Shown here: positions 19,940 through 59,499 of the stretch, piece after piece
Position numbering within the stretch: position 1 is the first letter of the stretch
Layout of the letters: every line of letters starts with the position of its first letter
Origin: Blattamonas nauphoetae
Lineage: Eukaryota > Preaxostyla > Oxymonadida
Direction of reading: 5' to 3'
Assembly: GCA_033064195.1 (NCBI GenBank)
Contig: JARBJD010000349.1
Span: 1 to 64,000 of the forward strand
Length of the DNA stretch: 64,000 bases
The notes under the pieces: generated by a model
What the model was told of the DNA's origin: nothing
Databases searched by the model: none
The model's input: the letters and a program-made list of their open reading frames with translations, nothing else
Position numbers and translations under genes: made by a program

Positions 19940-20014
19940 CTCCAAACAATGAAATATGGGGTATATTGGTCAAAAATGTCAAAGGTCAATCAACTAATGG
20001 ACAACGGAAAGTTG

Positions 20015-21110: not shown

Positions 21111-22902
21111 ATGGAAAAAGATACTTCTGTCAATCTCAAAGATATTTCGAGAGATGAACGTTGCGATATAACGAATAGAGCATGGCAAGCCATATGTGGG
21201 CTCTGGCCAGAAAACCCAGACGATCTTGTTCGACACCTCGTTTTGAGTAGCCACAAATGTCCGTCTGTAATTCAAGATATTGAGGCATCACAAAAAAGTA
21301 TGATTCTGATAGCGCATTAATTCATTTTTGATAATCTCGATCAGCGAAGGAGATGAACCTCATCACTGATCTGTTGGACATTCGTCGGAAGTCAACAATA
21401 GCCGCGTTAGACATTGAGTCTGTTTTAGCCAGATACTATACATATGCCGAACTTTGTGATGCCGGCTATGATAAATCGAGGAAACAGTTCATTTCAGCAC
21501 AGGTCCACAGAAATGAAGGACGTCATTGCCGAGACAAAATGACACATCCTCCGGTGCGTTTCACGCCTAGAAATAAAGATGAACCACAATTCAAAGAATA
21601 TATACTGGATCACTCCAATGAATCGTCCAAGGCACAGCAATTTCGAAGGGAAGATCCAGCAAATTGGATGCATGAACGAACCATAAATCGTCCTAAACAT
21701 GACATTTGGGAGAAACTACAAAATGAAACCGACATACGGATGGGCTATAGTACGTTTTGTCGGTTGACAACAGATCTTAAACAAGCCAAGGTCAGGACGG
21801 ATGTGTGTCCAGAGTGTTTAAGACTACAAGGATGAAAAAGAAGAGGAAAAGACACAAATATATCACTATATCTCAGAAGTATTAAACCACAATGCATCGT
21901 ATGTGGTTGAAGCGATGGAACTGCTGTTGTCCGAATCTCTTTTTGATCATGCCCAAGATCTGTATTTTTCTTCTGACTGTGGGCCGCATTTTAGGAACAA
22001 ACAGTTCCAATGTTATTTTTTATCAGATATCCCCGCTCTCAACCCCTCAATTTCAACCTTCATTGTCTACTACTTTGAGCACCACGGTAAGAACGTGTGT
22101 GACTCCGAATTTGGGACGCTGACAAAGGAACTGCATAAACACCCTCCAGACGAACCTATCGCAACATGTTCAGCATTCGTGGCATACTTCACACAGATTC
22201 ATGAATCGAGAGAGACGCGAATGGTGAAGTTCATCGAATTCCATCCCTCTTTTGCGAAAGAATCGCCCGAAATCGAATATGAAGGAGTCACAAAATACTT
22301 ATGTTTGACACTATCAGATTCCAAGCTCTTTGCAAGCGTGTCAGCAGCCATTCCTACATCACAATGGCTTCCGGTTCCATTCAACTACATGAAAGTGAAG
22401 TACGGTTTTGAAATAAAATCCTGGCATCAGGAGGTTGTGTCGTTCAAGCAGACTACTTCTCCTGAGAAGCAAAAGAAGTTCCGAGAGAGAAGAACAATGA
22501 TCACAAAAGGATCCTGTCTTGCTGAAGACAATGACGAATATGGAAGCAATGTTTGACTCAAATGATTTTACTCCTTTTTGTGTGATTTAGGGCGTGGGTA
22601 TTTCAATGTGTCTCACTCATCCCATCGACGGAATGACGAGAGAGAATGACAAGCCACCACCTCGTTCCCATCGAACATCCAGAGTGAGAATTCCCAAAAA
22701 AAGCGAAGATGACGACTTTATCCTTGGGACGGAGAAGGATATTTTTGAAAACGACGATGATCACATCGAAGAAGAAGCGAAACAAAAGACGATAAAGAAA
22801 AACAGGGTAAGACTGGAACCATTTGAATATTTTGCACTCATAACCGGTGGAGTTCTGTATTTGGTTTCTACAATTGGTCAGAAACTGCGTCATTCAAAGT
22901 GA
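21111..22902 (+). pseudogene. DDE-type transposase gene, internally damaged, with introns
   Basis: From ATG 21111: MEKDTSVNLKDISRDERC; a GT-AG intron 21298-21344 (47 bp, phase conserved); then 21345-21835 ending in a CPEC zinc-knuckle-like motif. The coding sense resumes in another frame from about 21850: SSDCGPHFRNKQF, YYFEHHGKNVCDSEFGTL. A 40-bp intron 22551-22590 joins an acidic tail (KSEDDDFILGTEKDIF). Aligned by eye with the transposase at 33327-35303, the region holding the first catalytic-type block (FDFKENW) is missing between the zinc-knuckle and the GPHFR block, so this copy is broken by deletion and frame change. Element ends were not found. Confidence 0.7.
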
Positions 22903-24002: not shown

Positions 24003-26662
24003 ATGATTCGATTGGGACTTCTTTTCGTTTTCAGTTGTCTGAACTGTGCTTGGGATGATTGCAGTGACACAACATTGCAGTCACTGTCACCAATCCTGAC
24101 ATCGTTCACAAACACTGTTGAACATGGAAATGCTGAGCCAGGATGGTTGCTGCTCCCAAGAGGACACTTCTTCGCATCGAATGATGTGGTGGAATCGAGT
24201 GATCTGACGATGAGAGGAAATGAAACTCGGATCAGATTCTGGGATGATTTTCGTGGAAGAGGAGGGAAGAAGACTGGCAAGTTGGATGAGAATGTCGTCG
24301 GATTTGAAACGATGTTCGTGTTCAGGAACAGCTCGGTTTGTCTGTGGTGGTTGGAGTTGGATTGTGGTGTTGAAGGAGTTGGGACAGCTCGTGTGTTGGG
24401 ATCTTGTGTGGTTGTGTCATTGTGCTCGATTCGTTCGAACATGGAATGCTCGCCATTTGTGGTTTGTTGGATGGGAGAGACTGACTGGAACTCGATCACA
24501 GTGACATCGAGTTCTCACGTGTCATCATGCTCTCCTTCTCTTCTTCCTCTGGTTGGGATTTGTGACGGCTCGATTCGCTCTGGCAAGACTGGAACTGCAT
24601 CGCTTGGACGATTGGACCGAACAGACAGAACTGAGGGTTGCACATCGTCTGTTTCGATCACAGGCACTTCGATTGAGCTTCGTGATGGTGATTTGATTTT
24701 GGGGACAGGTCCTCTGATTGGGTCACTGGACTTGGACAGAGCTAGAAATGATGTGGAGAGGAAATCAGTGTCGACATCGTTGGTTGGTTGTGTTCTTGTG
24801 AACATGACATCACGATGCTCATCGGATGGGATTGAAGTTGGGAGTTGGTTTGGTCAGTCGATTGTTGGGAGTGTTGTGTCGTCGTGTTCGAACCATCTTT
24901 ATGGAACATCGATTCGTTCGCTGAATGGTGGAGGGAGTCTTCTGAGTCTGAACTCCTCATTTGTCTCGTGCCTGGTGGACGCCACAAACGAGAACAAGCC
25001 GTTCACCACCACAACAGTCCTCACTGCCGACCATCCTCTCTTTTCATTCAAGCTCTGCACGTTCAAAGGATGCTCTGCATCAAGCGGTGGTGCAATCTGG
25101 TGCGGCTATGTCAATGTCGATATCTCATTCGACTCTTGTTCGTTTGATTCTTGTTCTTCGTCCGGCACTGGTGCAGCTGTCAGCTTCTTTTTTCCGGCGG
25201 AAATGACACACACGGTCACTCTCAAATCATCGTTCTTCAAATTGTGTTCTGCACAAGGAGATACGAATCTGAGAATAGAAAATCCCTGTAGTTTAACCAT
25301 CTCAGAATGTGTCTTCATTGAATCAGAAGCGGAAGTGTATGGAGGAGCGATTGATTTGTCCCGCTGGGATCCTGCTTCGAAAGGAGGCGCCATCTCGAAT
25401 TGTCTCTTCCTGAACTGCAAACAGACCAATGCAACATCTTATTATGGAGGAGGGGCATTGTTTTTACAGTGCTGTTCATCTGTCCAACTCTCTTCCCTCC
25501 TCTTCGATGGATGTTCGGCTGCAACTGGAAAAGGTCATGCAATCTACGTATTATTTACTCCTTATCCAACGTTTACCACAACGACCATCTCAACCTGTGC
25601 ATCGTCTTCGAAGTACTCCTCAAGTCTAATCTTCGTAGCAGATACCGGGGAAGATTTCAGCGATCTCCTCAACCAATCTCCCACCGCAATCACCCTCACA
25701 GCGCTCACTGGAGCTGTCGAAGGAACGGCAGCTGATGTGGAAGTGACTCTGGACAAGGCAGTGTCTGGAACACTGTTGATAGTTATGTCGAATGTTGAAG
25801 GAGAGCGAGTGGAAGTGACAGATGGGATTCCAAACATTGGTCGCGTTTTGAAGTTCTCGATGGTATTGTCGTCGATTGGATCGTGCTTGGTGAGGATTGG
25901 TGAGACTGGTCTTCTTCAGACTCCTCTCTCCGATTATTCCATCGTCGCTGCCTTTCTTCCTGGCCACGTCGTTTCATTCTCAACGTCTCCCATCTTCGAA
26001 AGCCCAAAGATTCCACCTTCACTCATCTCAGCAGTCTGTTCATTGGATGCCAGCCACACAAAAGTGAGAGTTGATTTTGAAGGAAGAGACTTTGAAGATG
26101 GAGAGTATGAAGTGCCATTCCAAGATGGATCATCTCTCACTGTGCAGTTCAGCAAAGCTTCTGATGGAGCATCGACTGGATCGAAGGATTTGGGATTGTT
26201 TGATCCAGATTCTCCGTGGTTCGAAAGAGGAACTTGGAATGTGAAAGAAGTGAAGAGTGTGACAGATTCAACAATGCTGATCGACATCGCCCATCCTGTA
26301 TCGTTCACAATTCCATCGGTGGCTCGATTGTCTGCGATTGAAGTGAGTGAACTGGATGACTCAACGAAAGGGAAAGTAACGCTGTCATTTTCGAGTGTGG
26401 AGTTGGAGAAAGGAGTGGAATACACCCTGACACTGATTGGACAAGACGCAGCTGAAAAGACACTGACGCGCCATGTGACAACAACATCATCTGGAACGAT
26501 TGGAGTGTTGGAAGAGGTGTTGTATCCATTTGCGACAGACCCAGTTGAACGAGCTCAACAGATGAATTTTGGAGTATTGTACAAGGTGACATCACTAAAA
26601 GCGACAGGTCGATCGAATTCGGTTCAAGTTGGATCAGTTGGAGTTCAGATGCCTGTCGAGCC
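24003..26662 (+). CDS. receptor gene, segment 1: signal peptide and pectin-lyase repeats
   Basis: ATG 24003 opens a hydrophobic signal peptide (MIRLGLLFVFSCLNCA). Residues about 280-520 hold parallel beta-helix repeats with the turn motifs SSGGAIW, YGGAIDLS, KGGAISNCLFLNC and YYGGGALFL (pectin-lyase fold). Residues about 560-880 are beta-sandwich modules (VEVTLDKAVSGTLLIVMSN, KVRVDFEGRDFEDGEYEVPF, GVEYTLTLIGQDAAEK). The open frame runs to 26714, but codons after MPVEP belong to the inserted element. The product is probably a cell-surface adhesin/receptor ending in a pseudokinase. The gene continues at 28869, 31402, 36133 and 41823. Confidence 0.85.
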
Positions 26663-26814
26663 GGGAACGACTATATCTCATCAAGCATTCCATCTATATC
26701 TCATCAAGGTTTGATCAAGGGTTTACTCTTTCCCTTAATAGTCTTTTTTCACCGACTGAATCTCCTGTTTTTCAGACTCAACACATCATTCTTATCTTCA
26801 TCTCACTGTAATTC

Positions 26815-27226
26815 GGCATAATCCGACCCCGTGCCCCCCTCCAATATTTTAACAGTTGCTTGATTTAACTCCATTTCACGATATTTTTGCAATTATTTTT
26901 CGATTTGAGACCGGGTTTTGGAGATATAAATTCATCTACACTTCACCCGATCCTTTTTCCAGACACTTTTTCATAATGTCGGATAGTCTTCACAGCCCCC
27001 CGCTCAAGAGCAGGGGGGGCTGTGAAGACTATTGGTGAATTCTCAAAAGTACCATAGAAAAAAGGATCTTTGTGAAGTGTTGAAACAAATAATGGGCTGG
27101 ATCGGGCCAAAATGGGCAGCTTCTTTTCGCCCTCAAAATCACAAAATTTCATCAAAAGTGTGATTATTAATCGAAAATAGGCATATTTGAAATTTTCGGT
27201 GAGGGGGCACGGGGTATGATTTTGCC
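26815..27226. mobile_element. 412-bp MITE, copy 2, nested in the long-TIR element
   Basis: GGCATAATCC-GACCCCGTGCCCCC to GGGGGCACGGGGTATGATTTTGCC, with TSD TGTAATTC at 26807-26814 and 27227-27234 (8 bp, perfect). Hairpin at 26983-27032 identical in design to copy 1. It sits inside the left TIR of the Mutator-like element, so it inserted after that element arrived or travelled with it. Confidence 0.9.
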
Positions 27227-27699
27227 TGTAATTCTCTCTATTTTCAACATTTTTGGTGGAATAAAACTACTTCTGTTGTTTCAAACAAACTGTGTTGATC
27301 GAGCCATTGATTGTTTCATTCTGAACATTAGACATCGTGACAGCTGGTCTCCTATCGGTTGTTTTTGCGGGATTGAAACAATTTTCGTAAAAAAGTTAAA
27401 AATTATTGGTCAAATAGAACAAGACACTCTTCAGGCTCCTTCTCCAATCTCTTTCCTCTCTATCTCGTCTTTCTCCTTCAAATGATCAAAAACCTCCTAG
27501 CAACTCATCTGTCCACTCTGTTTCGACTTCGATGTAGGCTGAATCTGTGTGTGTGTCGTCATCCTCGTCGTACATCCCCGATCGCTCCGTCCAATCTTGT
27601 CCCGTCCGTTAAAATATCCGCAATTCTCTGTCCTGCGACGCCTTGTTCTGCGGAAGCAGCAGAATCCAGTCTTCGGGCAGTGGCTTGCATGTGAAGAAC

Positions 27700-28525
27700 G
27701 AGAGATGGGGGATCAGCACAGAAGTGCAGTGCCACATCGGAACCTCATCCAACTTCTTCGGTGGGAGCGAGAACGAGGATGGGTGAAGACAACTGTCATT
27801 TTGAGTTGCGAGATAGGGTCGTCGCCGATCTTGTTCCTCGTTTGTTTCTCATCGCTGTTTTGGATCGAATCGACATCGACGAGCCAGCTCGTGTGTTGCA
27901 TTGTGGAGTGCCTCTGACGTTTGTGGCGACAGTGCGAGGACGAGTGGGGGTGAGTGGAACGTCGGCCATCTGGTCGTGCATGGCACGTGTCGGGAGAGCT
28001 TGACAAAGAGTGTTGCGGAATTGATGAACGCCTGTCAGACAGACACTTCGGACAGTCTTTGGAGAGAGTGATAGACAACCAGAAAATGAATACGAAGAAA
28101 GACCAGACCCTTTGCGCCTCTGTCAAGAACTCCTTCATCATCGCCTCGTCGGCATACATGGTGTGCAGATGCAGTTTGTCGATCTTCCCAATCGAGATCG
28201 TCTCCTCCGAGTCTGGCAGCAGCAGCGACTGTTCCATCGACTCAGCGCGGAAAAGGACAGCCACAATTGAACCAAGCAGCTGGCAAACAAGCGTATATTC
28301 GCCAGGGGGGAGATTAAAGGTTGTGTGGAGAGCGATCAGGACTCGATACAGCTTCATGTTCGGATGGTCGGCGAAGACGTTCTTAGCGACGGTGTCCAAC
28401 TGGAGAGTGCTGCTTGTGGGTGTCTTCGGACGACGATCGCTGGGCTTTGTGACAACCACTCCTTCAAGACAGTCAGGCTCTGAAAGCATGAAGTCGCCAG
28501 CGTCTATTGTAGACGGTAAAAACAC
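27700..28525 (-). pseudogene. captured gene fragment inside long-TIR element copy 1
   Basis: The minus frame 28525-28120 reads a plausible protein: DFMLSEPDCLEGVVVTKPS, TLQLDTVAKNVFADHPN, MKLYRVLIALHTTFNLPPGE, YTLVCQLLGSIVAVLFRAE, DKLHLHTMYADEAMMKEFLT. After EAQR a GT-starting stretch (GTCTGGTCTTTC) to a ...GACAG acceptor looks like an intron of about 70 bp. The following piece (AFINSATLFVKLSRHVPC) continues in an altered frame to about 27700. Family not recognised. It lacks 5' and 3' context, as expected for captured exons. Confidence 0.5.
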
Positions 28526-28868
28526 GCGTCATTTCACATCGGTATCGAGATGTTGCACATAGAACTAGTCCATAAACTTCGAGAAAACGAAGATGAGACC
28601 ACAGTTCCTGATTCTCGAAGATGGAAAGAAACAATCAATGGTTCGATCAACACAGTTTGTTTGAAACAACAGAAGTAGTTTTATTCCACCAAAAATGTTG
28701 AAAATAGAGAGAATTACAGTGAGATGAAGATAAGAATGATGTGTTGAGTCTGAAAAACAGGAGATTCAGTCGGTGAAAAAAGACTATTAAGGGAAAGAGT
28801 AAACCCTTGATCAAAACTTGAGATATAGATGGAATGCTTGATGAGATTTAGTCGGCCCCTTTCGAGCC

Positions 28869-28971
28869 AGTTCGGTTGACGAAGATCGAAGTGATTGACG
28901 AGACAGAGACATCAATCAGACTTCTGGTGACAGGGTCAGGATTCGTTCCAAAAGAAACATACACTGTTGAA
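28869..28971 (+). CDS. receptor gene, segment 2
   Basis: This 103-nt piece between two insertions reads VRLTKIEVIDETETSIRLL then VTGSGFVPKETYTVE. It completes the CC/A codon left open at 26662 (MPVEP) and joins in frame to VSGVSTGSGS at 31402. It is part of a beta-sandwich module like those in segment 1. The longer open frame (to 29100) continues only into the inserted element. Confidence 0.8.
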
Positions 28972-29141
28972 CGTACTCGATTTAACCCGCAACTCCGGAT
29001 AAACCCACACCCTGGATCTTCGGCCCACGATTCGGACATTTTCCTAGTTTCATCACTACTTCGCAGTTCTTTTATCAAAGGCTGCTCTAGAGAACGCTGA
29101 AACTCATGAAATGAATTCGAAACGATGGAATATGAAGATCA

Positions 29142-29309
29142 TCCCACGCCTTCCTCGTCTTCTCGCTCGTCCCACGCCTTCCTCGTCTTCTCGCTCGTCC
29201 CACGCCTTCCTCGTCTTCTCGCTCGTCCCACGCCTTCCTCGTCTTCTCGCTCGTCCCACGCCTTCCTCGTCTTCTCGCTCGTCTCACGCCTTCCTCGTCT
29301 TCTCGCTCA
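29142..29309. repeat. 28-bp minisatellite, 6 copies
   Basis: The unit TCCCACGCCTTCCTCGTCTT plus CTCGCTCG is repeated six times; the last copy starts TCTCACG. It lies within the inserted TIR element, so it moved with it or arose after insertion. Confidence 0.95.
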
Positions 29310-29374
29310 GTGTCTGTTCAGCCGTGTTGGATATGTGTGTGATGTTTCAGACAGGATGGCTGGAAGTATCTGAG

Positions 29375-29968
29375 TCAACTTGCCCTTCTCACCGGCTTCT
29401 CTCGTCTTTCTCCCTTTTCACTCGTTCCTCCTCTTCTTTCCTCAGTCTCTCCTTCTCTTCCGCTTTCTCTTTTGCGGTTTGTGTTTCTTCCGGCCTCCTC
29501 CACAGCTTCCTGAATACCTGTCCATTCTCTCGCATGCAACTTCCTCATCTCCACTTTCCTCCTCTTCTCTATCGACTCGATCTTCGGTCCACGTTTCTGG
29601 TATTCTTTTCGCTGACGAGCGAATTCGACAAGGTTGGTTTGGGTCGCATTCTGCGTCTTTCCGAAGCGAATTTCCATTTTGTGCTTTTTTCGCTCGAAAC
29701 CTGTCACGTTCTGATGGGCTAGTTTCGTTTCTTTGAGAGAATATTTGTGGAGGGGATCTGGATTGTCATGTGGGCGAGAATAAAACATCAATGATACAGA
29801 AAATGGTTTAAAAAATAAAGATAGAAAAACAACAAACATGGTTTTCTTTTTTCTCTGAGGAGAAGAAAGAGTCAGGAGAGAGAATATCACACTTTTGTGA
29901 TGGCGTGTTCTTCCTCTGCAATTGCGATCAGCTGATGCGTTGTTGTTCTGTTCGGCTGGAAGATCCAA
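29375..29968 (-). pseudogene. captured coding piece, basic coiled-coil-like
   Basis: The 197-codon minus frame has a Lys/Arg/Glu-rich stretch (NLVEFARQRKEYQKRGPKIE, KRRKVEMRKLHAREWTGIQE, AVEEAGRNTNRKRESGREGE) suggesting a charged helix or coiled coil. The N-terminal third (IFSLLTLSS...FVVFLSLFFKPF) looks like intron or linker read through. No family recognised. It lies inside the TIR element at 28972-31394, so it is probably cargo. Confidence 0.4.
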
Positions 29969-30105
29969 TTTCCAAAGAGACGAGTAAAGAAGATCAATCA
30001 GGAGGAAAAGAGAGCAGTATCATGAAACGAAAATGAAAAGATCAAACCTGTGGATGCTCAGACGAAGAATCGGTGGCGCCCTTGGGAGCCTGGTCGAAGA
30101 GGTGA

Positions 30106-30552
30106 CTATCCATGTCGACGACGAATGGAGGCGCGGGAAACCTCGGAATACATGCGAATCGTGGTGATGCTTGTGCAGGAAAGAGGTGAGGAGAGTCCGA
30201 CAGTTACGATGGACTGCGCATTGGAGGCGAGCCTTTCGATATGAGGTGTGATTGTGTCTGAGGCGTCTTCGTTGGCGATTGAGGCGGAATAACGGAGATG
30301 TTGGTTCGTGAAGACATATTTGAGAGCATCTGGTCGATTTCTTCTTGCCTCAGCTGCTTCAGCGGTGATGCATTTCGAAACAACTCGTGAGTGGGTGATT
30401 GACTGCAGAATGGCGGCACTTTCGTGGGGGACTAATAAAACACCGCAATTCCTCGCCGACGAATCGTCCTCGACGAGATCGGGGAAGAAGATCTCGAATG
30501 AGTGTGTTTGGTCGTGATCAAATGATCGGTGTCGATTCTGAGCTTTCCATCA
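30106..30552 (-). pseudogene. captured exon-like ORF without start codon
   Basis: A minus-strand frame of about 149 codons is bounded by stops and has no ATG/GTG near its start: DQTHSFEIFFPDLVEDDSSA, NCGVLLVPHESAAILQ, VVSKCITAEAAEARRNRPDA, LKYVFTNQHLRYSASIANED, TPHIERLASNAQSIVTVGLS, then a stop after RRRHG. Its composition is strongly protein-like. It reads as an internal or last exon of a gene caught in the TIR element, possibly the same gene as the charged piece at 29375-29968. Function unknown. Confidence 0.45.
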
Positions 30553-31401
30553 GCATTTGACTTGTTTCAAAGAGGAGAGGAGGATGTGAAACGGGATGGC
30601 GATGGGAAAGCGGAAGACAGTCACTGAGATCCAGAGAGTATGTCAGTCACCAGGGCTTCGAAAGTGTGGCGTTTGTCTGAAGAAATGACGATAAACCAGG
30701 TGATAGAAAAGATACAATACTTCAGAGTAGAAGAAATTGGATCGACAGGGGATGAAAATTCGAGCATACCGTCTCGTTTCCTCATCGAAACGTCAAGAGG
30801 TTGAGATGTCGAAATCTAATTTATCATCAGTTAGTGTAGGTTGTGAGGTGGATGGAGAGGGGGTGGAAGGGAGTGGATGGGAATGGAAGCTGATGGCTGG
30901 GAGGGGATAGGAGAGAAGATGATCTGCGACAAAAACAGATCGTGAAAAAGATTGAAAGACAACAACGAAAGACAACGAGTTGCGAAATAAAAATCCGAAT
31001 ACCCGTTCTAATTGCGAGTCCATGGTGTCGAATCTTCAATTCCCATTCTCTTTCCGCGATTTCCTGCGTGCATGCTTGACGGAATTCAACTGCATGACGA
31101 GAAAGGGTCGAGGATAGACGGGAGGTGAGGTACTCAGTGATGAGAGGAAGGAATGTTTGGAGGCAACTTGACCCGTGGAGTAACGTCCCAACCTGGTTGA
31201 TACACTTTCTTTTTTAAAATCGTCCCACAATGAGAATGATCGAAATGAAGAAAACATAATTTAGAAGAAATCATGTGGATTTTGGATTCAATAGATGTCC
31301 ACAGTGGATACCGAAGAGGTGAACACTTGAGGTGACTTCGGTTGTTTGAAAGCTGAGTTGCGGGTTTTCCCGAAGTTGCGTGTTTATCCGATGATGTTGA
31401 A

Positions 31402-32721
31402 GTGTCTGGAGTTTCGACAGGAAGTGGATCAGAGAATTCTCACACACGGACGTTCACTGTTGTTTCCTCTGGTGCGACATCTGCATCATCGTCCACACTT
31501 GTTCTCTCCTCCAGCTCTGAGTCAGCATCTCTGCAGTTTGGGCAAACATACAAAGTGACGAAGATTGACAATGGGACAGATGTTGGAATCGTCGCTGGAC
31601 CACACTCGTTCTCAACCCCTGAACATCCTCCACTTCGTCCACTCACCCCTCGCATCACAACAGCAACAGTCGAAGTGAACTCCCAAGGCATTCTGATGTC
31701 GATCGTTCTCACTGGCGAGCACCTCCCTTCAGACTCGGCATTCGATTTGACACTCAACGACACAATCACAATCCCAGTTTCGTTCACCTCGAGCACGAAA
31801 GGAAAGAGTGAAGTTGTGATGTTGGGGTTGGATGGAGGCCTCGATTTTGGTTCAACTTATCTGATCACAGATCTGTCCACGGGAGGACTGAAGATCATTG
31901 CAGATGGCATTTCCATCTCAACACCTCCAAAACCGTCGGAGCTGACCATCAGCGTGTGCTCTGACGATGCTGGTGATTCATCGATGATTCGGAGTGGGGC
32001 AGATGTCTCGACGTGTCTCCGAATCGAACGAGCGTGGGAGATTGCTGAACGACTCTCGATTGCGAACACTATGTTGCGTATTGTGAAACCAGCGTCACTT
32101 TCCACACCACTCCTTGTGTCGTCTCTTCCCTTCAAACTGACATCAGGCAACATGGATCAATCACTCCTCTCTCTTTCCCAACCACCGTCAAACACATATT
32201 TGGAACCTTCGCTCCTCTCAATCACGAATGGTGAATGTGGATTGTCTCTCCTCACAATCACCACTTCCTCGTCATCATCCATTGTGTTCATCTCAGCTCA
32301 ATCCTCCACAATCACAATCCAAACTTGTTCGATTGAAGGAACGCACAGCACAGAATCAAACTCTGAAGGATCGATTTGCGGATGGAACACAGGATTCCTG
32401 CATGTTGTTGAATCGACAACGAACCTGTCGTCAGTGACGATGAAGGGACTTGGATCTGGAGGGATTGTTCAGAAAGGAGGAGAACTGACGATCACGAAAG
32501 GAGAATTCTCTGAGAACGGAGGAACAAACTCGTCGTTCACATTGGCGAGACAGAACATCCACTGCGAAGGAGAAGGGAAACTGACGATCGACTCTCTTTC
32601 GAAGGGAGATGGGACGGAGGAACAGCCGTCAGCGTGGATTGATGCTGATGACTGCACTTTGACAGGAAAGATGACAGTTGTGAGCTCTCCTCTCTTCGTT
32701 CCAACTCTCGACTCTGACACT
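31402..32721 (+). CDS. receptor gene, segment 3: beta-sandwich and second pectin-lyase block
   Basis: Exactly 440 codons in the frame left by segment 2. It begins VSGVSTGSGSENSHTRTFTV with repeated beta-sandwich modules (FGQTYKVTKIDNGTDVGIV, ILMSIVLTGEHLPSDSAFDL, FGSTYLITDLSTGGLK). It then has a new beta-helix region (CLRIERAWEIAERLSIANT, EPSLLSITNGECGLSLL, QSSTITIQTCSIEG, GSGGIVQKGGELTITKGEF). It ends at LDSDT where the 8-bp TSD of the next element lies. The reading frame continues 33 codons into that element before a stop. Confidence 0.85.
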
Positions 32722-33341
32722 CAGGGTTCTAAATCTCCATCGTGCCCAGATCATTTAAATATTCTCGTTTGAATTTTATTATTCTAGGTAAACAGCGGTT
32801 TCTAAGTGGAATAACTAGGTAAGAAGTCTCAAACATTTTGAATTGTGAAGCGGAAGGACCGATCTTTTTGAGTTGCTTGCTTTGTCATGGTCTTCCAGTA
32901 GATCATAAAACTGTGAAAAGAAACAACCTACTGAACTCCTTTTATGCTTGATTTTGCAGTGTTGGAAGAATATGTTTGTTTGTACGACAAGAAAAATGAT
33001 ACTGAAAAATGAGTTTGTTCTGAGGGAGAGATTGGTCCAGATCCCTTCAAAACTGCATAAAAAGGAGAAAAAAAGAACAATTAGTTTGTTCGATCATCAG
33101 ATTATTTGATGAAAACATACAAGAGAGACCATCCTTGAGATCGTCTGAATTTTACGAGATGACGCTGTCAGCCGGAATTTCCGAAGTAGAAAAGTCTTCC
33201 ATGATATTGTAATGAGTTGTTTCCTCATCTGAATAATATCATCATTCCCCATGACGATTGGGAACTCTGCCCATTATTAGTCGTTTTCACCTAGAAATTG
33301 GGCAAGAATCTGGATGATGTCAAAACTTGGGTCTGATCAGA

Positions 33342-35303
33342 ATGAATACCGAATATCGCGTAACACGTAAAACAAGTCAAGCTCGTGCCAGACAGATCAT
33401 CAATAGAGCGAAAGAACTCGATCATCTGAACCCGGAGGCCCTACTCAAGTTTACGATTGAACACACATCAGAAGGAAAGAAAGTGGAAGATGCCCTTCGT
33501 CGCAAACATCTTGGTTTATTTCTGTCATTTCTAACTTCTTATTCTCTTCAAGTAGAATCCTTCGACAGCCTAATGAAACAACTTCGTCTCGCATTCTTAT
33601 CAATGTCCAAGCACTCCAAAGTTCTCCTGCTCACTGCTCTTCTGCAAGTCTTCACCTTTGAAGACTTCAAAAAATACCGATTTGGTATAGATCAAAACAC
33701 TCTACGCCATCCATATCGTTTGAAGCGCCTGAATTTATACCCACCAGAAAGATCACCAATCCAAAACCAATCCAGACATTCAATTCCCGTGGAAACACAG
33801 ATACTGGTCCACACATTCCTTCACAAACATTCAGTGGAATCGTGTACAGCACAAACAAAAAAAACAAAACCTGAATTCGTTGAAGAAGCGGTCCGACAAG
33901 AACAATCAAGGGACCATGACAATCTCCCCAAAAAATTCAATACAGACAGATATAAATGGAAATGGTCGGCTCGAACTCTCAATGATTCTCAAAAAAACCT
34001 ACATCAGTTGTACTGTCAAGAACATCCAGCAAATCGAATCTCGAAATCGTCATTTCGCCGATTTTGCAAGCATCTCTCAAAACCAAGAAGGAGGACGGAT
34101 ATATGCAATCGTTGCGGAAGACTGGATCAACTGAAGCGGCAGGAATCATCACTTCACAGTCAAGGAAGAGAACTCTCGCAAGGAGAGAAAAGAGAGAAAC
34201 AAATTCTCGAAGACCACAAGGAACAAGCGAGAATAACAAGAGACTCGTATCATTCTCAAGTGGAACAACTCCAAAAGGGACAAGGACTGCTCGTCTTTGA
34301 TTTCAAAGAAAATTGGCGCCTGTGCGTCTCCCCTGAACAACATTCCAAAGATTTTTATAAGAAACAGCAAATATCCCATCTTGGTTTTGCTCTGTTCACA
34401 AAACAAGATGATCAAACCCACCAAATTCGATATTTCCACTTCCTCTCGAAAACACTAAATCATGACACACAACATGTCATCCATTGCTTCAGAGATCTCC
34501 TTCTCATGTCTGACTTTCGTTCTCTCACCCACCTATATCTTTGGTCCGATACTGGCCCTCATTTTCGTTCCGGCTCTTTTCTCCATTTTGTTTTCTTTGG
34601 ATTACAGGCCTATCTACCCCAATGCACGGTATCAGTCGCCTTTTTTTGCGAGGGGCATGGGAAGTGCGTCTGCGACGGAGCCTTCGGAGTCCTCGCAAGC
34701 TGTCTCCGATCATCCAAAATTGACAACTCAATTACGACAGTTCAACAACTTATCGACTTTTTTCGTTCACAGATCAAACTGAAACATATTCCGCCTTCAC
34801 ACAGTTTCCATTTGGTGGAAATTGAGTCAACAGAACTCTTTGAGACGTACACCCTCCCACGCATCAAAGATTTTCTGAATTTTAAAGTCGAAAATGGCTG
34901 TGTATACGCTTCGCCATTTGCATGTCTTCCTCTCAACCTGTGGACAATTGTCCAATTTGTGAAGCCAAAATCTACGCCTCCAAGAGTGATCAGATCATAT
35001 CCGGAACAGACTCCCGTCTCAGAATGTCCGACAAAACACGATACGCTATGTCGTGTCGAGCGACGTAATGCTCTCCTCCTAGCCATGAAGACGGACACAT
35101 CCAGTGAGTCGATTTCTCCTGAAGAGATCAACTCAATTCTGAGTAAAATCACCAAATTTAAGAGGCCGCAAAGACGGACAGAGAATGAATCAGAATCTGA
35201 TGATGAAGTACTACTGAATCGACCATATGGTACACGGACTCCAAGCACTCGATTGGTCAAGAAGCTGGGCAACCTTTCTGTCACGAATCTACCTTATCAT
35301 TAA
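33342..35303 (+). CDS. DDE-type transposase, intact ORF, unusual family
   Basis: About 653 residues from ATG 33342 (the open frame extends five codons upstream from a TTG). Order: basic N-terminus; helical region; a DICNRCGRL zinc-knuckle-like motif near residue 250; a charged coil; VFDFKENWRLC near 320; LWSDTGPHFRSGSF near 405; CEGHGKCVCDGAFGVL near 440; acidic C-terminus (ENESESDDEVL). The spaced D (FDFKEN), D (SDTGPHF) and HGK-CD block resemble an RNase-H-fold DDE/D transposase. The damaged relative at 21111-22902 shares the GPHFR and HGK-CD blocks. Family name not assigned. Confidence 0.75.
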   Translation: MNTEYRVTRKTSQARARQIINRAKELDHLNPEALLKFTIEHTSEGKKVEDALRRKHLGLFLSFLTSYSLQVESFDSLMKQLRLAFLSMSKHSKVLLLTALLQVFTFEDFKKYRFGIDQNTLRHPYRLKRLNLYPPERSPIQNQSRHSIPVETQILVHTFLHKHSVESCTAQTKKTKPEFVEEAVRQEQSRDHDNLPKKFNTDRYKWKWSARTLNDSQKNLHQLYCQEHPANRISKSSFRRFCKHLSKPRRRTDICNRCGRLDQLKRQESSLHSQGRELSQGEKREKQILEDHKEQARITRDSYHSQVEQLQKGQGLLVFDFKENWRLCVSPEQHSKDFYKKQQISHLGFALFTKQDDQTHQIRYFHFLSKTLNHDTQHVIHCFRDLLLMSDFRSLTHLYLWSDTGPHFRSGSFLHFVFFGLQAYLPQCTVSVAFFCEGHGKCVCDGAFGVLASCLRSSKIDNSITTVQQLIDFFRSQIKLKHIPPSHSFHLVEIESTELFETYTLPRIKDFLNFKVENGCVYASPFACLPLNLWTIVQFVKPKSTPPRVIRSYPEQTPVSECPTKHDTLCRVERRNALLLAMKTDTSSESISPEEINSILSKITKFKRPQRRTENESESDDEVLLNRPYGTRTPSTRLVKKLGNLSVTNLPYH

Positions 35304-36061
35304 CATGTTTTGACACGTTTCCCTCATGTTTCTGTTTCTCTATTTTTATTCGAAATGTTGTCAGAATATGAGTAAAATTTGAGAGAAGTCATCTCAGGCA
35401 GTTTTCAGTCATGGACAAAAGTTTTCGGTTTTCCTGTCCAGAAACACTGAGTGGTGAGATTTCGTTTTTGTTTAGTCGGACACTTCATCATCCAAAAAGA
35501 ACATTGTGGCGAGAAAACCAGAGCGAACGGTTGTTTCGTAGTGGAGATACAGAGGAACGAAGAGTCTGAAAAAAAGTGACAAAAATAAGTGCTCAACCAC
35601 AATCGACCATTTTTCACACAGTGAGAGGTTGTGAAGAGATTAGATCATTTTTGCCGAAATATACGAGATCCTCCGACTCTTCCGCAAGAAAAAGCGAACA
35701 TTCGCAAAAAAACTTCTACAGTGGAAAGGTTCGCATTTCTCACCCACAAACTGTAGACAAGTCTACCAACCTCGATGCGTGTCGATGTCATGTCACCTCC
35801 ACACATGTGAAGTTTCAGCATCGAACTCCTTTCCTAATTCGTCACACCAGACTTTGAGCTTTTTCCTGCCGACCACTTTTGTCCATGACTGTTTGACTTC
35901 ACTCAGACTCTCACCCAATTGACACTTGTGAAATTAGAAATGTATAACAGTGAAATGAAAAAAATGACAATATTACTCTGAGGAGTGTTGTAGCACCACT
36001 AGGATCCTCTGTGTATACGAACGGAGTGGATCATCGTGAGAACATCGTGCGGGGATCGCGG

Positions 36062-36108
36062 CCTCGTGCGGTTTATCGGAAGACCTGTCCGAAAAAGACC
36101 GCACGAGG
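36062..36108. repeat. subterminal hairpin of the transposase element
   Basis: An 11-bp perfect stem CCTCGTGCGGT/ACCGCACGAGG encloses a second short stem (TCGGA/TCCGA). It lies 16 bp inside the right terminus; a possible transposase-binding or end-recognition structure. Confidence 0.75.
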
Positions 36109-36132
36109 CAGGTTTCGAACCCTGCTGACACT

Positions 36133-36975
36133 TCATCCACGAACTTCGATAAAAAGACGAACACGATTCACTTTTCTCTGAAAGGAGAGATGCTTGTGCC
36201 GTGTGGTCTCGATCTGGAAGTGTTTGAGTGGGATTCAGAGAAGAGTGTGATTGGTGCATCAACTCTTCTCCAACTGGACACCCTCGCAATCACGAAATGG
36301 ACTGAGACTGAGATCGTTGGACAAGTGGATCTCAAAACATCGCTCTTGTCTCTCAAATCCTCTCTCCAATGGCGTGCCAGACTGGTGTTTGGAGACAATC
36401 GAACAACGGTGAATTCCTTCCTTTTCGCTTCAGCGTCATCGACAGGAAAAGGGAACATGTCGCAAGGAGGAACTGCCTCGAAGATGTTGTGGATCATTCC
36501 TGTCGCAGTTGCTGCCCTTCTCGCTGTTGGCTTTCTCGTGATGTTGGTGTGTTTCGTCCGAGTTCGTCGAGACCGAAAACAGAAATCGGATGTTCTTCTT
36601 TCGCACCAAGAGATGGATGCCCAGAATGAAGCTGACATCGAAAAAGTGGAGATCGCCGCTGATCTTCTCCCCAACTCAACTGGCCCTGCTCATCTCTGCT
36701 CCAAGTCGATCAAAAGCGAGTTCTCTGATGGATCCGCAGAAGAGATGTGGACGCTGAAGTGTGAAACTGACCAGACTGGAGAGATGGTTGATGTGATTGA
36801 ACTTGATGGGAAGGAGCACACAACCACGAAAGTGAGAGCGCTGACGACACTTCACTCAATACTGCACAAAGAGAATTCTCTCCTCCATCCGCAACTGATC
36901 CAACGGCAAGTCGCTTTCGGACTGTCGCACGTGCTGTCCACTCTGCAGACGAAGGACGCTCTCACCCAACTGACC
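36133..36975 (+). CDS. receptor gene, segment 4: membrane-proximal, TM and start of pseudokinase
   Basis: 281 codons in frame with segment 3 (LDSDT then SSTNFDKKTNTIHFSL). The last beta-sandwich (MLVPCGLDLEVFEWDSEKS) is followed by one transmembrane helix at about 36484-36555 (LWIIPVAVAALLAVGFLVML) with a basic stop-transfer RVRRDRKQK. The cytoplasmic juxtamembrane part and kinase-like N-lobe follow (EMWTLKCETDQTGEM, HSILHKENSLLHPQLIQRQV, AFGLSHVLSTLQTKDALTQL). No glycine loop or catalytic lysine is obvious. The open frame to 37344 beyond LTQLT is retroelement sequence. Confidence 0.85.
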
Positions 36976-37347
36976 TTTCTACCAAACCAGTGCTTACCAA
37001 CTCCTGAGTCTGGCGAAGTGAAACCATGGGTGGCCGATCCACCTGAACAAACAATGAGAAAACAATTTGTCTGTTCTAGAATAAAAAAGTATCCCGACAA
37101 GGGACTCAAGGGTCACAGTGTCGGTTCTACCCTCGAAAGGGTGGTTGATAAGCAAAAAAGAGAGGAGTTGGGTCTATTGTTCCAGAAATCCCCAACGGGG
37201 AACAAAAACTGGAGGAAACTGAGAAGTCCAAAAGGACAATGTGAAGTGGAACTACATGAAGATGTATTGATAGAGCCGCCTCTACTGCAGCATTCAAACG
37301 AAAACGCAATCCTGATCTTTCCTACTGTTGTGTGGCAGATCTAAATG

Positions 37348-37424
37348 TTGGTAAGCACTGGTTTGGTAGAAAGGTGTTCCTTGCTCTCACACCACTACCA
37401 AACCAGGGTTACCAACTCCTGAGT
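37348..37424. repeat. internal complementary region of the DIRS-like element
   Basis: 37348-37372 is the complement of the element's left end (36976-37000). 37373-37424 is the complement of its right end (41771-41822). The two abut exactly, like a circle junction. Confidence 0.9.
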
Positions 37425-37513
37425 ATTGAAAGGAGAAGAAACAGGAAGGCAAGATAAAAGAAAATGATGAAAACAAAGAAAGATGTCTTCTTCGGCTTGG
37501 TAATTTCGTCAAG

Positions 37514-39000
37514 CTATTTCTTCTGGCCGTGCCCCCTGAGGGGCTGCCACCAACTGTCAGACAGTGGCGGAGCTGTGAGTCCAATGAGGACTGGTGAAGA
37601 GTAATAATCATCGGCGATGGTGGATCTTGCCGACCATCCCACATACCCGTTCAAGAGTTCGAGAGGAACTCTCACCACTCGTCTCAAGTAACTCACTGCG
37701 GCATGTTTGATACTGTACGGTCCGTACTCCTCTGGGACCCCTATCTCTGCCAGAACACTCTTCAGCCCCGCAGCAATTTCTGTCATCTTCAACGGAGAGC
37801 CTGTCTTGAAGCTCTTCCACACTCTTTGTTCGTCAAACGATCCGTTCTGAGGGTTCTTCTGATGCTCGTCGAGCATGTTCTTTCTGTGCAGTGAGAGTGC
37901 GACGAAAGGAGAGAACGACTCATCACCCTCGTCTCTAACAAACCGCAAATCGGCTTCTGTTTGATTCTGTTTTGGGTGGATGGAGATAGTGGCGAAGGAT
38001 TCTGGGATGTGTTCCGACACCTCGACGAAACACACGTCCTTCCAACATAAATTCACGATCTCTTCTCTTCTGCACATCGTTGTGGCGAGTGTGAGGATGA
38101 ATGTTCGCAACTGTTGGAGTGATGTGTCGTTCTTCGCTTGCTCTGCGTTCTTCTGGACCCATGAGAGGATCAGGTCCACATTCCATATCACTGTGTAGTG
38201 GCGCTTTGACTTTCTTTTGGGGTGGTTACGTTCAAAGACCTTCCTGAAAGATTGAAGATGTGATTGTCTGCTGTGTAGACACGGGTGGAACAGACCAAGG
38301 GATTGAACAACCTTGACAACGGCAACGTGTGCAAGTTGATGAGGCGGAGGGAATTGTTGAGAGAGATGCATAACGAAACTACATAATATTGCCTCAATGT
38401 TTGTTTTCCTGTTGATCAACACAGCTGGTGGATGACCTTTGTCTTCGCAAAACAGCTTGAACAGCTTCCAAGCTCGCATCCACGGACCACGGTTCTTATA
38501 TCTGTGTTCCTCCACCTCCCTCACCTTCTGGTCTATTCTTCTAAGATCGCAGAGCTCTCGAAAGTAGAGGAGTCCTGCCAGGTTCTCTTGCCCAGTAAAG
38601 AAGCGCGAACCATCCCTGGGGGCAGACTCGCTTCCGATTCCTGGTCGGTCATCATTGTCATCGTACAATATTCGCCGAGTTCGAAGGCTTCCTCCTCCAA
38701 TTCCTTCAGAAGCTGTGACCATGTCTGATTCTGCCAGTTGGGTGTAATCAGAACCCCCATCGTCACTGGTTCGATCATCAGTTTCCTCAAAACCTGAGGT
38801 ATCACTAAGATCGGAGGATGAATAAGTGGGAAGTTCATCCCCGTCCAATTCACTGTGAGGGCATTCGTTCCTACTGCCCCTTCGTCCTCGTAGAGTGAGA
38901 AGTATCTTTGACATTGAGTATTCCGACTTGAGGCGAAAAGATCGATTTGCGGATCGAAGCACCATCGATCGTGGAGCAGTTGAAGCGCTGTTTTCTGTAG
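37514..39000 (-). CDS. DIRS-like tyrosine recombinase (C-terminal part of a 978-codon open frame)
   Basis: The open frame spans 37514-40450 and overlaps RT in another frame. The recombinase sense lies in its last 450 or so codons (about 37514-39000). Visible motifs are an Arg-containing TTMCRREEIVNLCW box, the SIKHAAVSYLRR box, and a C-terminal GWSARSTIADDYY with the presumed nucleophile Tyr, the R..HxxR..Y pattern of tyrosine recombinases. In the DIRS order this enzyme integrates a circular intermediate. The exact N-terminus is not determined; expression through overlap or alternative start is inference. Confidence 0.85.
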
Positions 39001-40422
39001 CTGGTACTCGGCTTGTGGGTGTAATCGGGAGAGAGCATCCGCTTTGCAGTTCTCCACTCCTGGGATATGTTGGATGTCTGCGACCAATAGACCCACTTCC
39101 TTGATGGTCCGAAGGGTCTTCCGTGTGATGTGACACAACGTTGGTCCTGCTCTCATCTTCTTCAAGTTGTATACGGCTGTCGTGTTGTCGCTCTTGATCA
39201 GAATGGCTGATATGCGATTGTCCTTCAATAGTCGAGACGCCGTGAGAACAGCAAACCGCACTGCAGCTGTTTCTTTCCAATTCGAAGTCTCCTCTCTCTG
39301 TTTCTGTGTCCACTCTCCGTGAAAGTATGTCTCTTCGCCTGAGATCTCGACCACACAGCCCCATCCTGTTGGGCTCGCATCCGTTATGAGACAGGCCTGA
39401 GGTGTGATGACCTCGAACGTCTTCGGTGTGTTCGTGGTGATCCGGGTCGACCAAAAGGTCATCTCCCCGATCAGTGCTGGTGTTAGAATGGCATTGGACA
39501 ACCAACCTCCCTGTCCTACTGCTTCGTCCTTGGTTTTGATCATCTTCAGAAGAAACAAGCTGGCTTCTGGGATCACTGTCCTGAGATGGTTCAGGTTTCC
39601 AATTATCTGCGCGAGATACCGAACAGGAACAACTGATCTGTTGAATGCTTGTGCTTTGGCAACTCTGAGCATATTGAGGAGTCGAGACTGTCTCTTTGGA
39701 GTGATTGATAGTGATTGATTCGTCGAATCGATTCTCCACCCAAGATATTCGATCTGCTGCGATGGAACAATCTGGCACTTGTCGAGAGACATTTGAAACC
39801 CGAGAGTCATCAACATCCTCATTGCGAGCTCTGTTTTCGATTGTGATTCCATCTCGTCCCGACAAATCAGAAGAAGATCGTCCAGATATGCAATTACTGG
39901 AATCTGGAGAGCCTCCCTCAATGATTTCACCGCAATTCGCATTACCTTTGTGAAGGTTCGTGGAGCCGTCGCTAACCCGAACGGCATCCCCACATACTGA
40001 TAGAATTGGTTTTGGAATTGAAAGCACAGGAAGCGGCGGAGATGAGGAGGGACAATGATGTGCTGGTATGCGTTCTTGATGTCGATGCTGGTCAACCAAG
40101 ACGATTGGTTGATGAAATGAACTGCTGTGGAGATATCCTCCATTTTGAAGTGTTCGATGGTCAGTTCGGAGTTCAGGGGAGTGGCATTTAGGATCTTGCG
40201 CCACTTCCCCCCTGGTTTCGGGACCAGGAAGGTGTGTAGGGAGAGGGCGACCTCCGTCAGTTGCACCGGGACAACCACACCCGTCTTTATTTCCTCCTCC
40301 AATAAGATTCGATATGCTTGGGTCTCCACAGCATTGCCCTTGAACTGGGGAGCCCATGGCACTTCCTGTAACCTCTTGACTGATTCCTCGTCTTTCCACT
40401 TCCATTGTGCCCCCTTCTCCAC
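38533..40422 (-). CDS. DIRS-like reverse transcriptase - RNase H
   Basis: 629 codons. RT motifs: HTFLVPKPGGKWRKILNATP, LTSIDIKNAYQHI, YVGMPFGLATAPRTFTKVM, the catalytic box VIAYLDDLLLICRD (YLDD), and LGWRIDS. RNase H follows: LITDASPTGWGCVV, WKETAAVRFAV, ILIKSDNTTAVYNLKK, IPGVENCKADALSR. No protease or DDE integrase is present, matching the DIRS layout with a recombinase in the overlapping frame downstream. Confidence 0.9.
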   Translation of the reverse strand: MEKGAQWKWKDEESVKRLQEVPWAPQFKGNAVETQAYRILLEEEIKTGVVVPVQLTEVALSLHTFLVPKPGGKWRKILNATPLNSELTIEHFKMEDISTAVHFINQSSWLTSIDIKNAYQHIIVPPHLRRFLCFQFQNQFYQYVGMPFGLATAPRTFTKVMRIAVKSLREALQIPVIAYLDDLLLICRDEMESQSKTELAMRMLMTLGFQMSLDKCQIVPSQQIEYLGWRIDSTNQSLSITPKRQSRLLNMLRVAKAQAFNRSVVPVRYLAQIIGNLNHLRTVIPEASLFLLKMIKTKDEAVGQGGWLSNAILTPALIGEMTFWSTRITTNTPKTFEVITPQACLITDASPTGWGCVVEISGEETYFHGEWTQKQREETSNWKETAAVRFAVLTASRLLKDNRISAILIKSDNTTAVYNLKKMRAGPTLCHITRKTLRTIKEVGLLVADIQHIPGVENCKADALSRLHPQAEYQLQKTALQLLHDRWCFDPQIDLFASSRNTQCQRYFSLYEDEGAVGTNALTVNWTGMNFPLIHPPILVIPQVLRKLMIEPVTMGVLITPNWQNQTWSQLLKELEEEAFELGEYCTMTMMTDQESEASLPPGMVRASLLGKRTWQDSSTFESSAILEE

Positions 40423-40496
40423 ACGCTCTCGCCCTCCAATCCTCGTCCACTCCGCGATTGCATTGAGAAGCCGACTCGGCGTCGCACAGTGACTGA

Positions 40497-41735
40497 CTAG
40501 TTGCGTCTTGGTGGCTGCTTGAACGATTGACGGTTGTGGGGGCCCTTTGTTTGAGTCGGGGGGTGGCCCGTCCCCCCTCGTGGGGAGAAAAACCCTTGTG
40601 TTGAAGGGATTGGTTGGTATGAATACGCTTGCTGTGGCGGTGGCAACGAAGATAAAGTTATCGATGGAGGGTATGAATTTGCTTGATTGGGCGGGAGTAG
40701 TAGATCCGAAGCCGTGTTGATCGGCTGCGTCAATCCAAGGATCGTGGAGACGCGATTGTAATTTGCTGGATTCACGTATCGACCGTACTCACAACATGTC
40801 GCCGCGTCCGCTGAGTCGACTATTGATTGTGTGATGAGGTTTAGAATGTGTTTTTCAGGCTCACCTCGACAGACCATGTCGTAGGCTTCAGCCATTCTTG
40901 CGATCGATGACAGGCTTGACTGTGATGATGTCCTTAGGGCCTGATCTTGAATTCTTTGGAATTCTGTAAGAAGGTGGCTGTTTGCTGCGATTTCTGTTGG
41001 TATTCCGAGGATATGTTTCATATGTGACGTGGATGCGTTTGCCACATCCCGTTGCTGTGTTGGTAGAGCAGCTTGTAACCAATTGTCGGAAAATGTTGGT
41101 TCTATCTTCTTAATATCTCGTCTTATCCGCTTTCTAAACTTTTCTTGACTCTGTCTGTTGTAGTGAAGGAGACTGCTGTGATCATGTCTGTCATCACGTC
41201 TGGATGTCACGAACCTCTTTTTTCGTAGTTGATTCCGATCTCTTTTTCTTCTTGAAGTAGTATGCTGCCTTGAAAATGTTCCGCTGCTATCTGAATCGAT
41301 AGATCTTCCCGAAGGTGTGTCCGAGCCGGAGTAATATGATGGTGAAGACGAGTACGAAATTGAACTGTTAGTACCCGAAGTTGATTCGTCTCGCCTCGAT
41401 TGCCGTCCTTTTCGACGACGGGAATGCACGGACTTCGATCTTTTTGGGACCACATGATGATGATGATGAGGTGTCGAATCCGCAGTTTGACGTTTGCTTT
41501 TCTGTATGACAGGCATAGTTTCATAAGAAGGACGACTGTTCGATTCAACTATTGGTGTTGATTGTGATAGTACAGTCCTCGATGACAAATCAGGTGGTGT
41601 CGACGGTTGATTTGCCAGGCTCGGAATAAGATGCGAAATCTGATTCACAACTGCAAGGAGAACGTCTTGGTTCAATTGCCTTGCAGATAGTTCGTCAGTT
41701 TCCGTAGCAATGGTTTTCTCGTTGGAGAGTTCCAT
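40497..41735 (-). CDS. DIRS-like Gag-type ORF
   Basis: About 412 codons from ATG 41735 (MELSNEKTIATETDELS). A His run (HHHHH), then a long Ser/Arg-rich basic stretch (KRSKSVHSRRRKGRQSRRDE, SYSSSPSYYSGSDTPSGRS), a more folded middle (WLQAALPTQQRDVANAS, GIPTEIAANSHLLTEFQRIQ) and a Pro/Gln-rich end. It sits first in the element, upstream of RT, as expected for Gag. Call rests on position and composition. Confidence 0.7.
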   Translation of the reverse strand: MELSNEKTIATETDELSARQLNQDVLLAVVNQISHLIPSLANQPSTPPDLSSRTVLSQSTPIVESNSRPSYETMPVIQKSKRQTADSTPHHHHHVVPKRSKSVHSRRRKGRQSRRDESTSGTNSSISYSSSPSYYSGSDTPSGRSIDSDSSGTFSRQHTTSRRKRDRNQLRKKRFVTSRRDDRHDHSSLLHYNRQSQEKFRKRIRRDIKKIEPTFSDNWLQAALPTQQRDVANASTSHMKHILGIPTEIAANSHLLTEFQRIQDQALRTSSQSSLSSIARMAEAYDMVCRGEPEKHILNLITQSIVDSADAATCCEYGRYVNPANYNRVSTILGLTQPINTASDLLLPPNQANSYPPSITLSSLPPPQQAYSYQPIPSTQGFFSPRGGTGHPPTQTKGPHNRQSFKQPPRRN

Positions 41736-41822
41736 TGATGGATCGGCCACCCATGGTTTCACTTCGCCAGACTCAGGAGTTGGTAACCCTGGTTTGGTAG
41801 TGGTGTGAGAGCAAGGAACACC

Positions 41823-42263
41823 TCCCACTGGGTGTTGTTCGACAGCAAAGACCGGATGTTCCTTCAGATTTCGAGTGGGAGTGGGAAAGGAGTGGGAGTG
41901 AGTGGAGGATGTGAGATGAAAGATGTGAAGCCGTCGAATGAGGGATTGCGATGGGGAGCACCGGAGCAGAAGGAGGAATCCACGCTGTCAGTGTGTGGTG
42001 TTGACGTCGAGAAGGTGTCGGTTTTTCGGCTCGGCCTGTTGTTGTGGGAGATGGAGACGGGAGAGATACCGTTCAAGGAGGTGGATGCTGTGAACGCGCA
42101 TCGGCAGGTTGTGAGTGGAATCCGACCCGACCTCACCAAAGTCGCGAACTCGTCGATGCGAGCACTGATCCAGAACTGTCTCCACCAGACACCAGAACAC
42201 AGGCCAACCCTTTCCACAATTACGCGCCATCTCTGTGACATCACCAAAGATCAACCACAATAG
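41823..42263 (+). CDS. receptor gene, segment 5: pseudokinase C-lobe and stop
   Basis: 146 codons plus stop, in frame with segment 4 (LTQLT then SHWVLFDSKDRMFLQI). Kinase subdomains: the SHWVLFDS...MFLQI strand sits where HRD and DFG would be, and neither is present. Then WGAPEQ (APE motif), VFRLGLLLWEMETGEIPF (subdomain IX-like, but F replaces the usual W and R the usual D), and CLHQTPEHRPTLSTI (the Arg of subdomain XI). Missing VAIK, HRD and DFG mark a pseudokinase, or a strongly divergent one. Ends KDQPQ. Confidence 0.85.
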   Translation, partial: SHWVLFDSKDRMFLQISSGSGKGVGVSGGCEMKDVKPSNEGLRWGAPEQKEESTLSVCGVDVEKVSVFRLGLLLWEMETGEIPFKEVDAVNAHRQVVSGIRPDLTKVANSSMRALIQNCLHQTPEHRPTLSTITRHLCDITKDQPQ

Positions 42264-59480: not shown

Positions 59481-59499
59481 TCCTTCCGGTTTCACAGAT

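Follow-up and report, generated by a model that had tools for sequence, protein, structure and literature searches.

A multiply interrupted receptor-like gene copy in Blattamonas nauphoetae, probably a very young pseudogene carrying at least seven transposon insertions

In the oxymonad Monocercomonoides exilis, repeats make up 46% of the genome and kinases are among the largest gene families, according to excerpted text of PMC8767320. Merlin transposons in metamonads are the topic of PMC8101967, as its summary information indicates, and the one paper pairing Blattamonas with transposons in the literature we searched has, in the excerpt available, M. exilis as its subject. No paper on DIRS elements in oxymonads was found in that literature, and among the available parts of the literature on oxymonad and Blattamonas mobile elements and kinases none was recognised as dealing with the present locus. 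Like the expanded protein tyrosine kinase family of M. exilis, as partly described in PMC8767320, the locus analysed here belongs to a very large kinase family overlapping repeats in an oxymonad genome.

The window, by which we mean the whole 64,000-nucleotide stretch of Blattamonas nauphoetae DNA that was analysed, comprises bases 1-64000 of a 75,409-base contig (C278). The assembly searched holds 88,311,006 bases in 837 contigs.

The interrupted gene and its inserts

The original prediction for this window held that five host segments add up to 1,789 codons including the stop, that no host stop or frameshift has accumulated, and that dropping each insert with one copy of its target duplication (TSD), or with none for the DIRS-like element, keeps the frame. 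Joining the segments of Table 1, with segment 2 taken to its earlier edge of 28971, we obtained 5,367 nt, divisible by 3, with a sole stop at the end, which bears out the length and the clean frame; the joined junctions match the sequence of uninterrupted paralogues. The frame is kept on such removal because insertion was clean, and the information lies only in the absence of later damage. Without joining, a frame read from a host segment into the insert that follows runs for 50, 127, 49 and 367 nt beyond the edge of inserts 1-4, respectively, before reaching a stop.

We place the gene in its family by whole-length similarity to paralogues with an ectodomain and a kinase-like C-lobe. In a Pfam profile scan the host protein matched PF07714 (E 1.5e-11), while the ectodomain matched PF13229 at E 0.0012, below that profile's cut-off. 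The kinase profile is matched over its C-lobe half only, in 41823-42263, as it is in the open paralogue L012 (profile positions 162-258 of 258), and because of this the receptor family may be one of pseudokinases. Catalytic kinase motifs were not recognisable by eye in the host gene.

Table 1. Host segments, inserts and nested elements, in window coordinates
Feature	Positions	Strand	Description
Host segment 1	24003-26662	+	N-terminal part and beta-helix-like ectodomain of receptor
Insert 1	26663-28859	.	Long-TIR element; TSD 26654-26662 / 28860-28868, one mismatch
MITE-like element nested in insert 1	26815-27226	.	412 bp; 8-bp TSD TGTAATTC
Host segment 2	28869-28970	+	Right edge is end of left TSD copy (earlier edge 28971)
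Insert 2	28971-31397	.	Imperfect TIRs; 3-bp TNA duplication, TGA at 28968-28970 / 31398-31400
Host segment 3	31402-32721	+	
Insert 3, outer element	32722-36124	.	~787 bp without nested cargo; TIR CAGGGTTC; 8-bp TSD CTGACACT
Transposase-like element nested in insert 3	33300-35916	+	4-bp TSD AATT
MITE-like element in transposase-like element	35406-35891	.	486 bp; 3-bp TSD TTT
Host segment 4	36133-36975	+	Transmembrane stretch (by eye) and start of kinase-like domain
Insert 4	36976-41822	-	DIRS-like: reverse transcriptase frame 38533-40788, recombinase-like frame from 37514, inverted terminal repeats
Insert 4, internal complementary region	37347-37375		Complements 36973-37001
Insert 4, internal complementary region	37372-37424		Complements 41771-41823
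Host segment 5	41823-42263	+	Kinase C-lobe (PF07714 profile 167-258) and stop

Of the four unrelated insertions originally proposed, the four primary sites in the host gene stand, but the inserts hold at least seven transposons, three of which are nested in earlier inserts. The superfamily names used for them rest on duplication lengths and end motifs that we assume to be characteristic; the DIRS assignment is excepted, having been compared with the literature. Naming the insert frames by Pfam was tried and abandoned, given that four of five frames had no match at E 0.1 and the remaining match (E 0.053), below cut-off, was taken as chance.

The TSD of insert 1, corrected here, is 9 bp long with one mismatch (TGTCGAGCC/TTTCGAGCC), and a copy on contig C190 has the same ends with a 9-bp TSD of its own, CCGTCTTCC. 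Insert 1 has complementary arms of 41, 111 and 96 nt. A 9-bp TSD with long TIRs is what we take to be the signature of MULE-like elements. However, the longest frame of the window copy (271 aa) has no Pfam match at all, including to a MuDR-type transposase; the copy may be non-autonomous, and we did not file insert 1 as a MULE. Elsewhere in the window, 20012-20421 is a relative (92%) of the MITE nested in insert 1.

The boundary first proposed for insert 2 has been revised to the edges in Table 1, which a 3-bp TGA duplication flanks; the same TNA triplet stands on both sides in seven of the eight other copies examined, the exception being on C368. The outer element of insert 3 is flanked at either edge by CTGACACT and has the ends CAGGGTTC/GAACCCTG; an uninterrupted copy on C218 is flanked in like manner by CCTAGGAC. 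It is short, its longest frame in the first 579 bases being 92 aa, and we call it hAT-like from its 8-bp TSD and CAGGG-type TIR, presumably the signature of that superfamily. The open frame of the element nested in it (33318-35303, 661 aa) has no Pfam match and was named transposase-like by eye. A copy of this element on C19 is free of the 486-bp MITE-like insertion.

Beside the relative of the MITE at 20012-20421, a broken frame at 21042-22902 resembles, by eye, the transposase-like frame of insert 3, and its 244-aa part has no Pfam match. Related minus-strand frames, at 71-77% DNA identity, lie at 12136-13401, 51171-52244, 54091-54984 and 58629-59516. By eye, the copy of the transposase-like element on C19 (L031) lies within a relative of this frame family. 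The contig begins with CT-rich tandem repeats (1-300, by eye), and 2649-3325 contains self matches spaced by multiples of 58 bases.

Insert 4 invites comparison with DIRS1-like retrotransposons, which, in the portion of PMC3266345 available, have a reverse transcriptase, a long overlap with a recombinase-like frame, inverted terminal repeats, and two internal complementary regions overlapping at a short junction, and integrate without a duplication longer than 3 bp. Insert 4 has these features in common with them. Its internal complementary regions overlap at 37372-37375, and the ACC found on both sides of the insert falls within this overlap stretch, such that the earlier statement that the DIRS-like element has no TSD is correct in the DIRS sense. 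The reverse transcriptase matched PF00078 (E 9.5e-25). A putative RNase H is indicated by PF17917 (E 0.0096) and by PF17919 (E 0.014), neither of which reaches its curated cut-off. The insert departs from the available description in PMC3266345 in three respects: the tyrosine recombinase match is weak (PF00589, E 0.075), there is no Pfam match to a methyltransferase domain in the three frames scanned, and the left-end triplet is not ACC in four other copies that were read. With its reverse transcriptase, inverted termini and overlapping complementary regions insert 4 is a candidate member of the DIRS order; the missing methyltransferase match in those three frames speaks against the DIRS1-like superfamily in the strict sense. 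Two DIRS-like copies (C118:7861-12704 and C684:8129-12954) have a common right flank and different left flanks.

A genome so rich in near-identical repeats might be misassembled, and the inserts could in principle be artefacts of assembly. The edges of primary and nested elements alike carry clean target duplications, and other copies of the elements have matching patterns, which makes such an artefact scarcely credible.

Empty sites in related copies

Uninterrupted paralogues, for which the original prediction had proposed a genome search, are present at every site. Sites 1-4 are crossed without an insert by 18, 18, 13 and 5 alignment rows from 20 fetched loci, some of which give several rows; in L014, small indels lie no more than 24 nt from site 3. 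In a wider census, joined probes for sites 1 and 2 returned 40 rows, of which three are the window's own, 36 cross both sites and one is other (36 of 37 non-window rows crossing, 40 of 46 candidates scored). That row, C767:46996, ends 8 bases before site 1, where the open frame continues with different sequence. Site 3 gave 45 rows, two of them the window's own, with 26 of the 43 others crossing and 17 not reaching across, and site 4 gave 11, two being the window's own and all nine others crossing. A crossing row is uninterrupted by construction, so the informative point is the absence of splits: among the census rows no paralogue is split at any of the four window sites. These rows should not be read as independent genes, given that several are tandem modules within one gene. 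One paralogue, for example, repeats the module of sites 1 and 2 in tandem with a 984-base period (C230:23625, 24609, 25593). As to whether the pieces might derive from different paralogues, or the junctions occur in no intact relative, the segments fall in one close-paralogue group and the junction sequences are present in uninterrupted relatives.

Counting full or near-full matches to segment 3, the family has at least 23 receptor-like copies including the window's, at 81-90% identity (40 of 58 candidates scored). The paralogue L012 (C248a), 89.9% identical to the window gene, has a stop-to-stop frame of 1,812 codons that spans all four sites, and the frames of L022 (2,158 codons), L024 (1,828) and L025 (2,475) are open over the first three. 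L016 (2,272 codons), L019 (1,789) and L026 (2,015) are also open, their similarity to the window gene stopping before the sites; L026 has, in addition, another copy extending across sites 1 and 2. Other members are broken: L011 by a stop, as well as L009, L010, L013 and, heavily, L014. Alignment extends over the upstream flank in 13 rows (close copies at 82-91%) and over the downstream flank in five loci only (up to 94%), and because both flanks align between copies, at least some of the family appears to have arisen through duplication that included flanks.

Other members of the family, on C342, C175 and C131, carry insertions at sites other than those of the window. Their inserts match the window in two stretches only, one of 134 bases at 73% (in the DIRS-like element) and one of 526 bases at 86% that lies beyond the gene (window 52951-53410). 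The C175 and C131 copies (C175:29247-39810 and C131:93345-104065; L020, L021, L027, L028) are sister paralogues with a common insertion at joined bases 736-744, marked by a 9-bp overlap; within it C175 has ~4.8 kb extra, and C131 has a further insertion at joined bases 948-956.

Such young insertions would be expected to be polymorphic, and the assembly might show only the interrupted haplotype of a locus that also has an intact allele; the main text of PMC10703272 gives no ploidy (neither 'ploid' nor 'heterozyg' occurs in it). However, searches of the assembly turned up no empty copy that is nearly identical (40 of 76, 40 of 58, 40 of 46, 39 of 39 and 11 of 11 candidates scored), the closest relatives being ~91% identical over the gene, and we regard an intact allele as unlikely.

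Age of the insertions and the intact frame

Each element was compared with one fetched copy, perhaps not the nearest, and the identities include divergence from before insertion, such that they set upper bounds on age. In aligned parts they range from 99.1 to 100%: 99.1% and 99.3% by piece for insert 1; 99.1% and 99.4% in two aligned pieces for insert 2; 99.7% and 99.5% for the outer element of insert 3 (207/208 in its right part); 99.8% for both the transposase-like element and the 486-bp MITE-like element; and 99.5% for insert 4. The 412-bp element nested in insert 1 is identical to a copy on C824 over 412/412 bases.

Assuming indel/substitution ratios of 0.05-0.15, the probability of no disabling change in 5,367 nt is 0.40-0.64 at 0.1% divergence, 0.16-0.41 at 0.2% and 0.02-0.17 at 0.4%, and the neutral divergence accumulated since constraint was lost has a 95% upper bound of 0.32-0.67%. 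A clean frame is thus the expected outcome at ~0.1-0.2% neutral divergence and unlikely above ~0.4%. Together with the near-identical element copies, this supports the proposal that all four insertions are extremely young. Two points stand against extreme youth. One is the changed base of nine in the first TSD, and the other is a stretch in insert 2 of ~151 bases (29835-29985), against ~344 in the sampled copy, altered by deletions and mismatches. Because the other listed copies having both pieces break at the same place as the sampled copy, this alteration is private to the window copy, and it may postdate insertion.

Compared with five relatives, the window copy has 106 private substitutions, 39 synonymous and 67 non-synonymous, and one further site where a stop is counted in the consensus codon only. 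The ratio lies weakly below neutrality (p 0.03) and does not differ from that of the intact C248a (33:45, Fisher p 0.54), so most private substitutions of the window copy predate its disruption. The ratio for C342, which is also interrupted, is 31:65 (p 0.21).

The frame around every insert being intact, the original prediction had allowed that a full-length message or DNA is restored, by splicing, precise excision or programmed elimination. A spliceosomal intron was rejected: across the four inserts, 30 offsets would give back the exact sequence, and none of them has GT-AG ends. GT-AG pairs that keep the frame and lie no more than 30 nt from both edges do occur, 12, 4, 3 and 4 of them for inserts 1-4, but their removal would not give back the exact sequence. 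Furthermore, TSD length and ends vary among the four types of insert, a mixture that no single excision machinery would explain, and the nested elements carry duplications of their own. The existence of whole paralogues removes the need for such a mechanism, leaving restoration unsupported and, in our estimation, extremely improbable.

Could intact paralogues instead have kept the frame open by donating sequence through gene conversion, or could the pieces themselves be under selection, for instance segment 1 as the source of a secreted ectodomain, given that it still encodes 886 codons? Window 24902-25802 (joined ~900-1800) has a dS of 0.23-0.34 to close paralogues, compared with 0.01-0.06 for the preceding 900 nt. 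Across nine close copies, mean third-position differences are 3-5% at joined 1-900, 19-22% at 900-1800 and 8-20% beyond, while the upstream flank differs by ~9-18%. The mid-ectodomain thus equals or exceeds that flank in divergence and the 5' coding part falls far below it, a pattern that suggests exchange between copies or unusual constraint. No close donor was found for window 24950-25750 (best match 82%), and the first 744 nt, at 97% to C175/C131, were dropped as a conversion tract given that close copies are all 94-100% alike there. However, segments 3-5 are also open, at a dS to close paralogues of 0.09-0.33, and so are not covered by recent conversion; a short age alone suffices. We therefore hold conversion or selection to be an improbable reason for the open frame. 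A broader proposal is that the interrupted copy forms part of a recombining receptor repertoire, in which a hypervariable ectodomain (joined ~900-1800) would lie between homogenised ends, transposon-silenced copies would serve as sequence reservoirs for intact paralogues, and transposon arrival would outpace disabling point mutation; this we consider doubtful.

Our conclusion, held with high confidence, is that the locus is a pseudogene copy, very young and hit several times, in a receptor-like family with redundant members. It draws on what is directly seen in the assembly: the sites are empty in paralogues, the inserts have target duplications and some are nested, every element has a near-identical copy elsewhere, and the frame of one paralogue is open over the whole set of four sites. 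In this reading a single member of a large family with a beta-helix-like ectodomain, a transmembrane stretch (by eye) and a partial tyrosine-kinase-like domain was hit by transposition at least seven times, with four elements entering the host gene and three landing inside earlier inserts, too recently for a stop or frameshift to have arisen. The first hit would have lifted selection against later ones, and the copy, presumably now non-functional, would be tolerated through the redundancy of its paralogues. A point against this reading is the clustering: at a uniform rate, a single copy would not be expected to take four primary hits, with a rough Poisson P of ~0.0005 for this named copy, the mean of 0.35 being a hand count of seven primary insertions over ~20 copies.

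Implications and comparison with known systems

If the locus is indeed such a young pseudogene, several transposon families would have been active at about the same time in the genome of one gut flagellate. The arrival of at least seven insertions, three of them nested, in one gene before a single disabling point change would help to bound relative rates in an amitochondriate lineage. No hidden restoration mechanism is needed to explain pieces that read cleanly when related copies are whole.

In contrast to the M. exilis kinase family, as partly described in PMC8767320, the host gene here has a Pfam match over the C-lobe only and no catalytic motifs recognisable by eye. The locus also resembles young pseudogenes in multigene families of which one member has taken nested transposon insertions, and has in common with them target duplications, near-identical sister copies, empty sites in paralogues and family redundancy. 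It differs from them in density, with at least seven insertions of seven different element sequences in a 5.4-kb gene ahead of any disabling point change.
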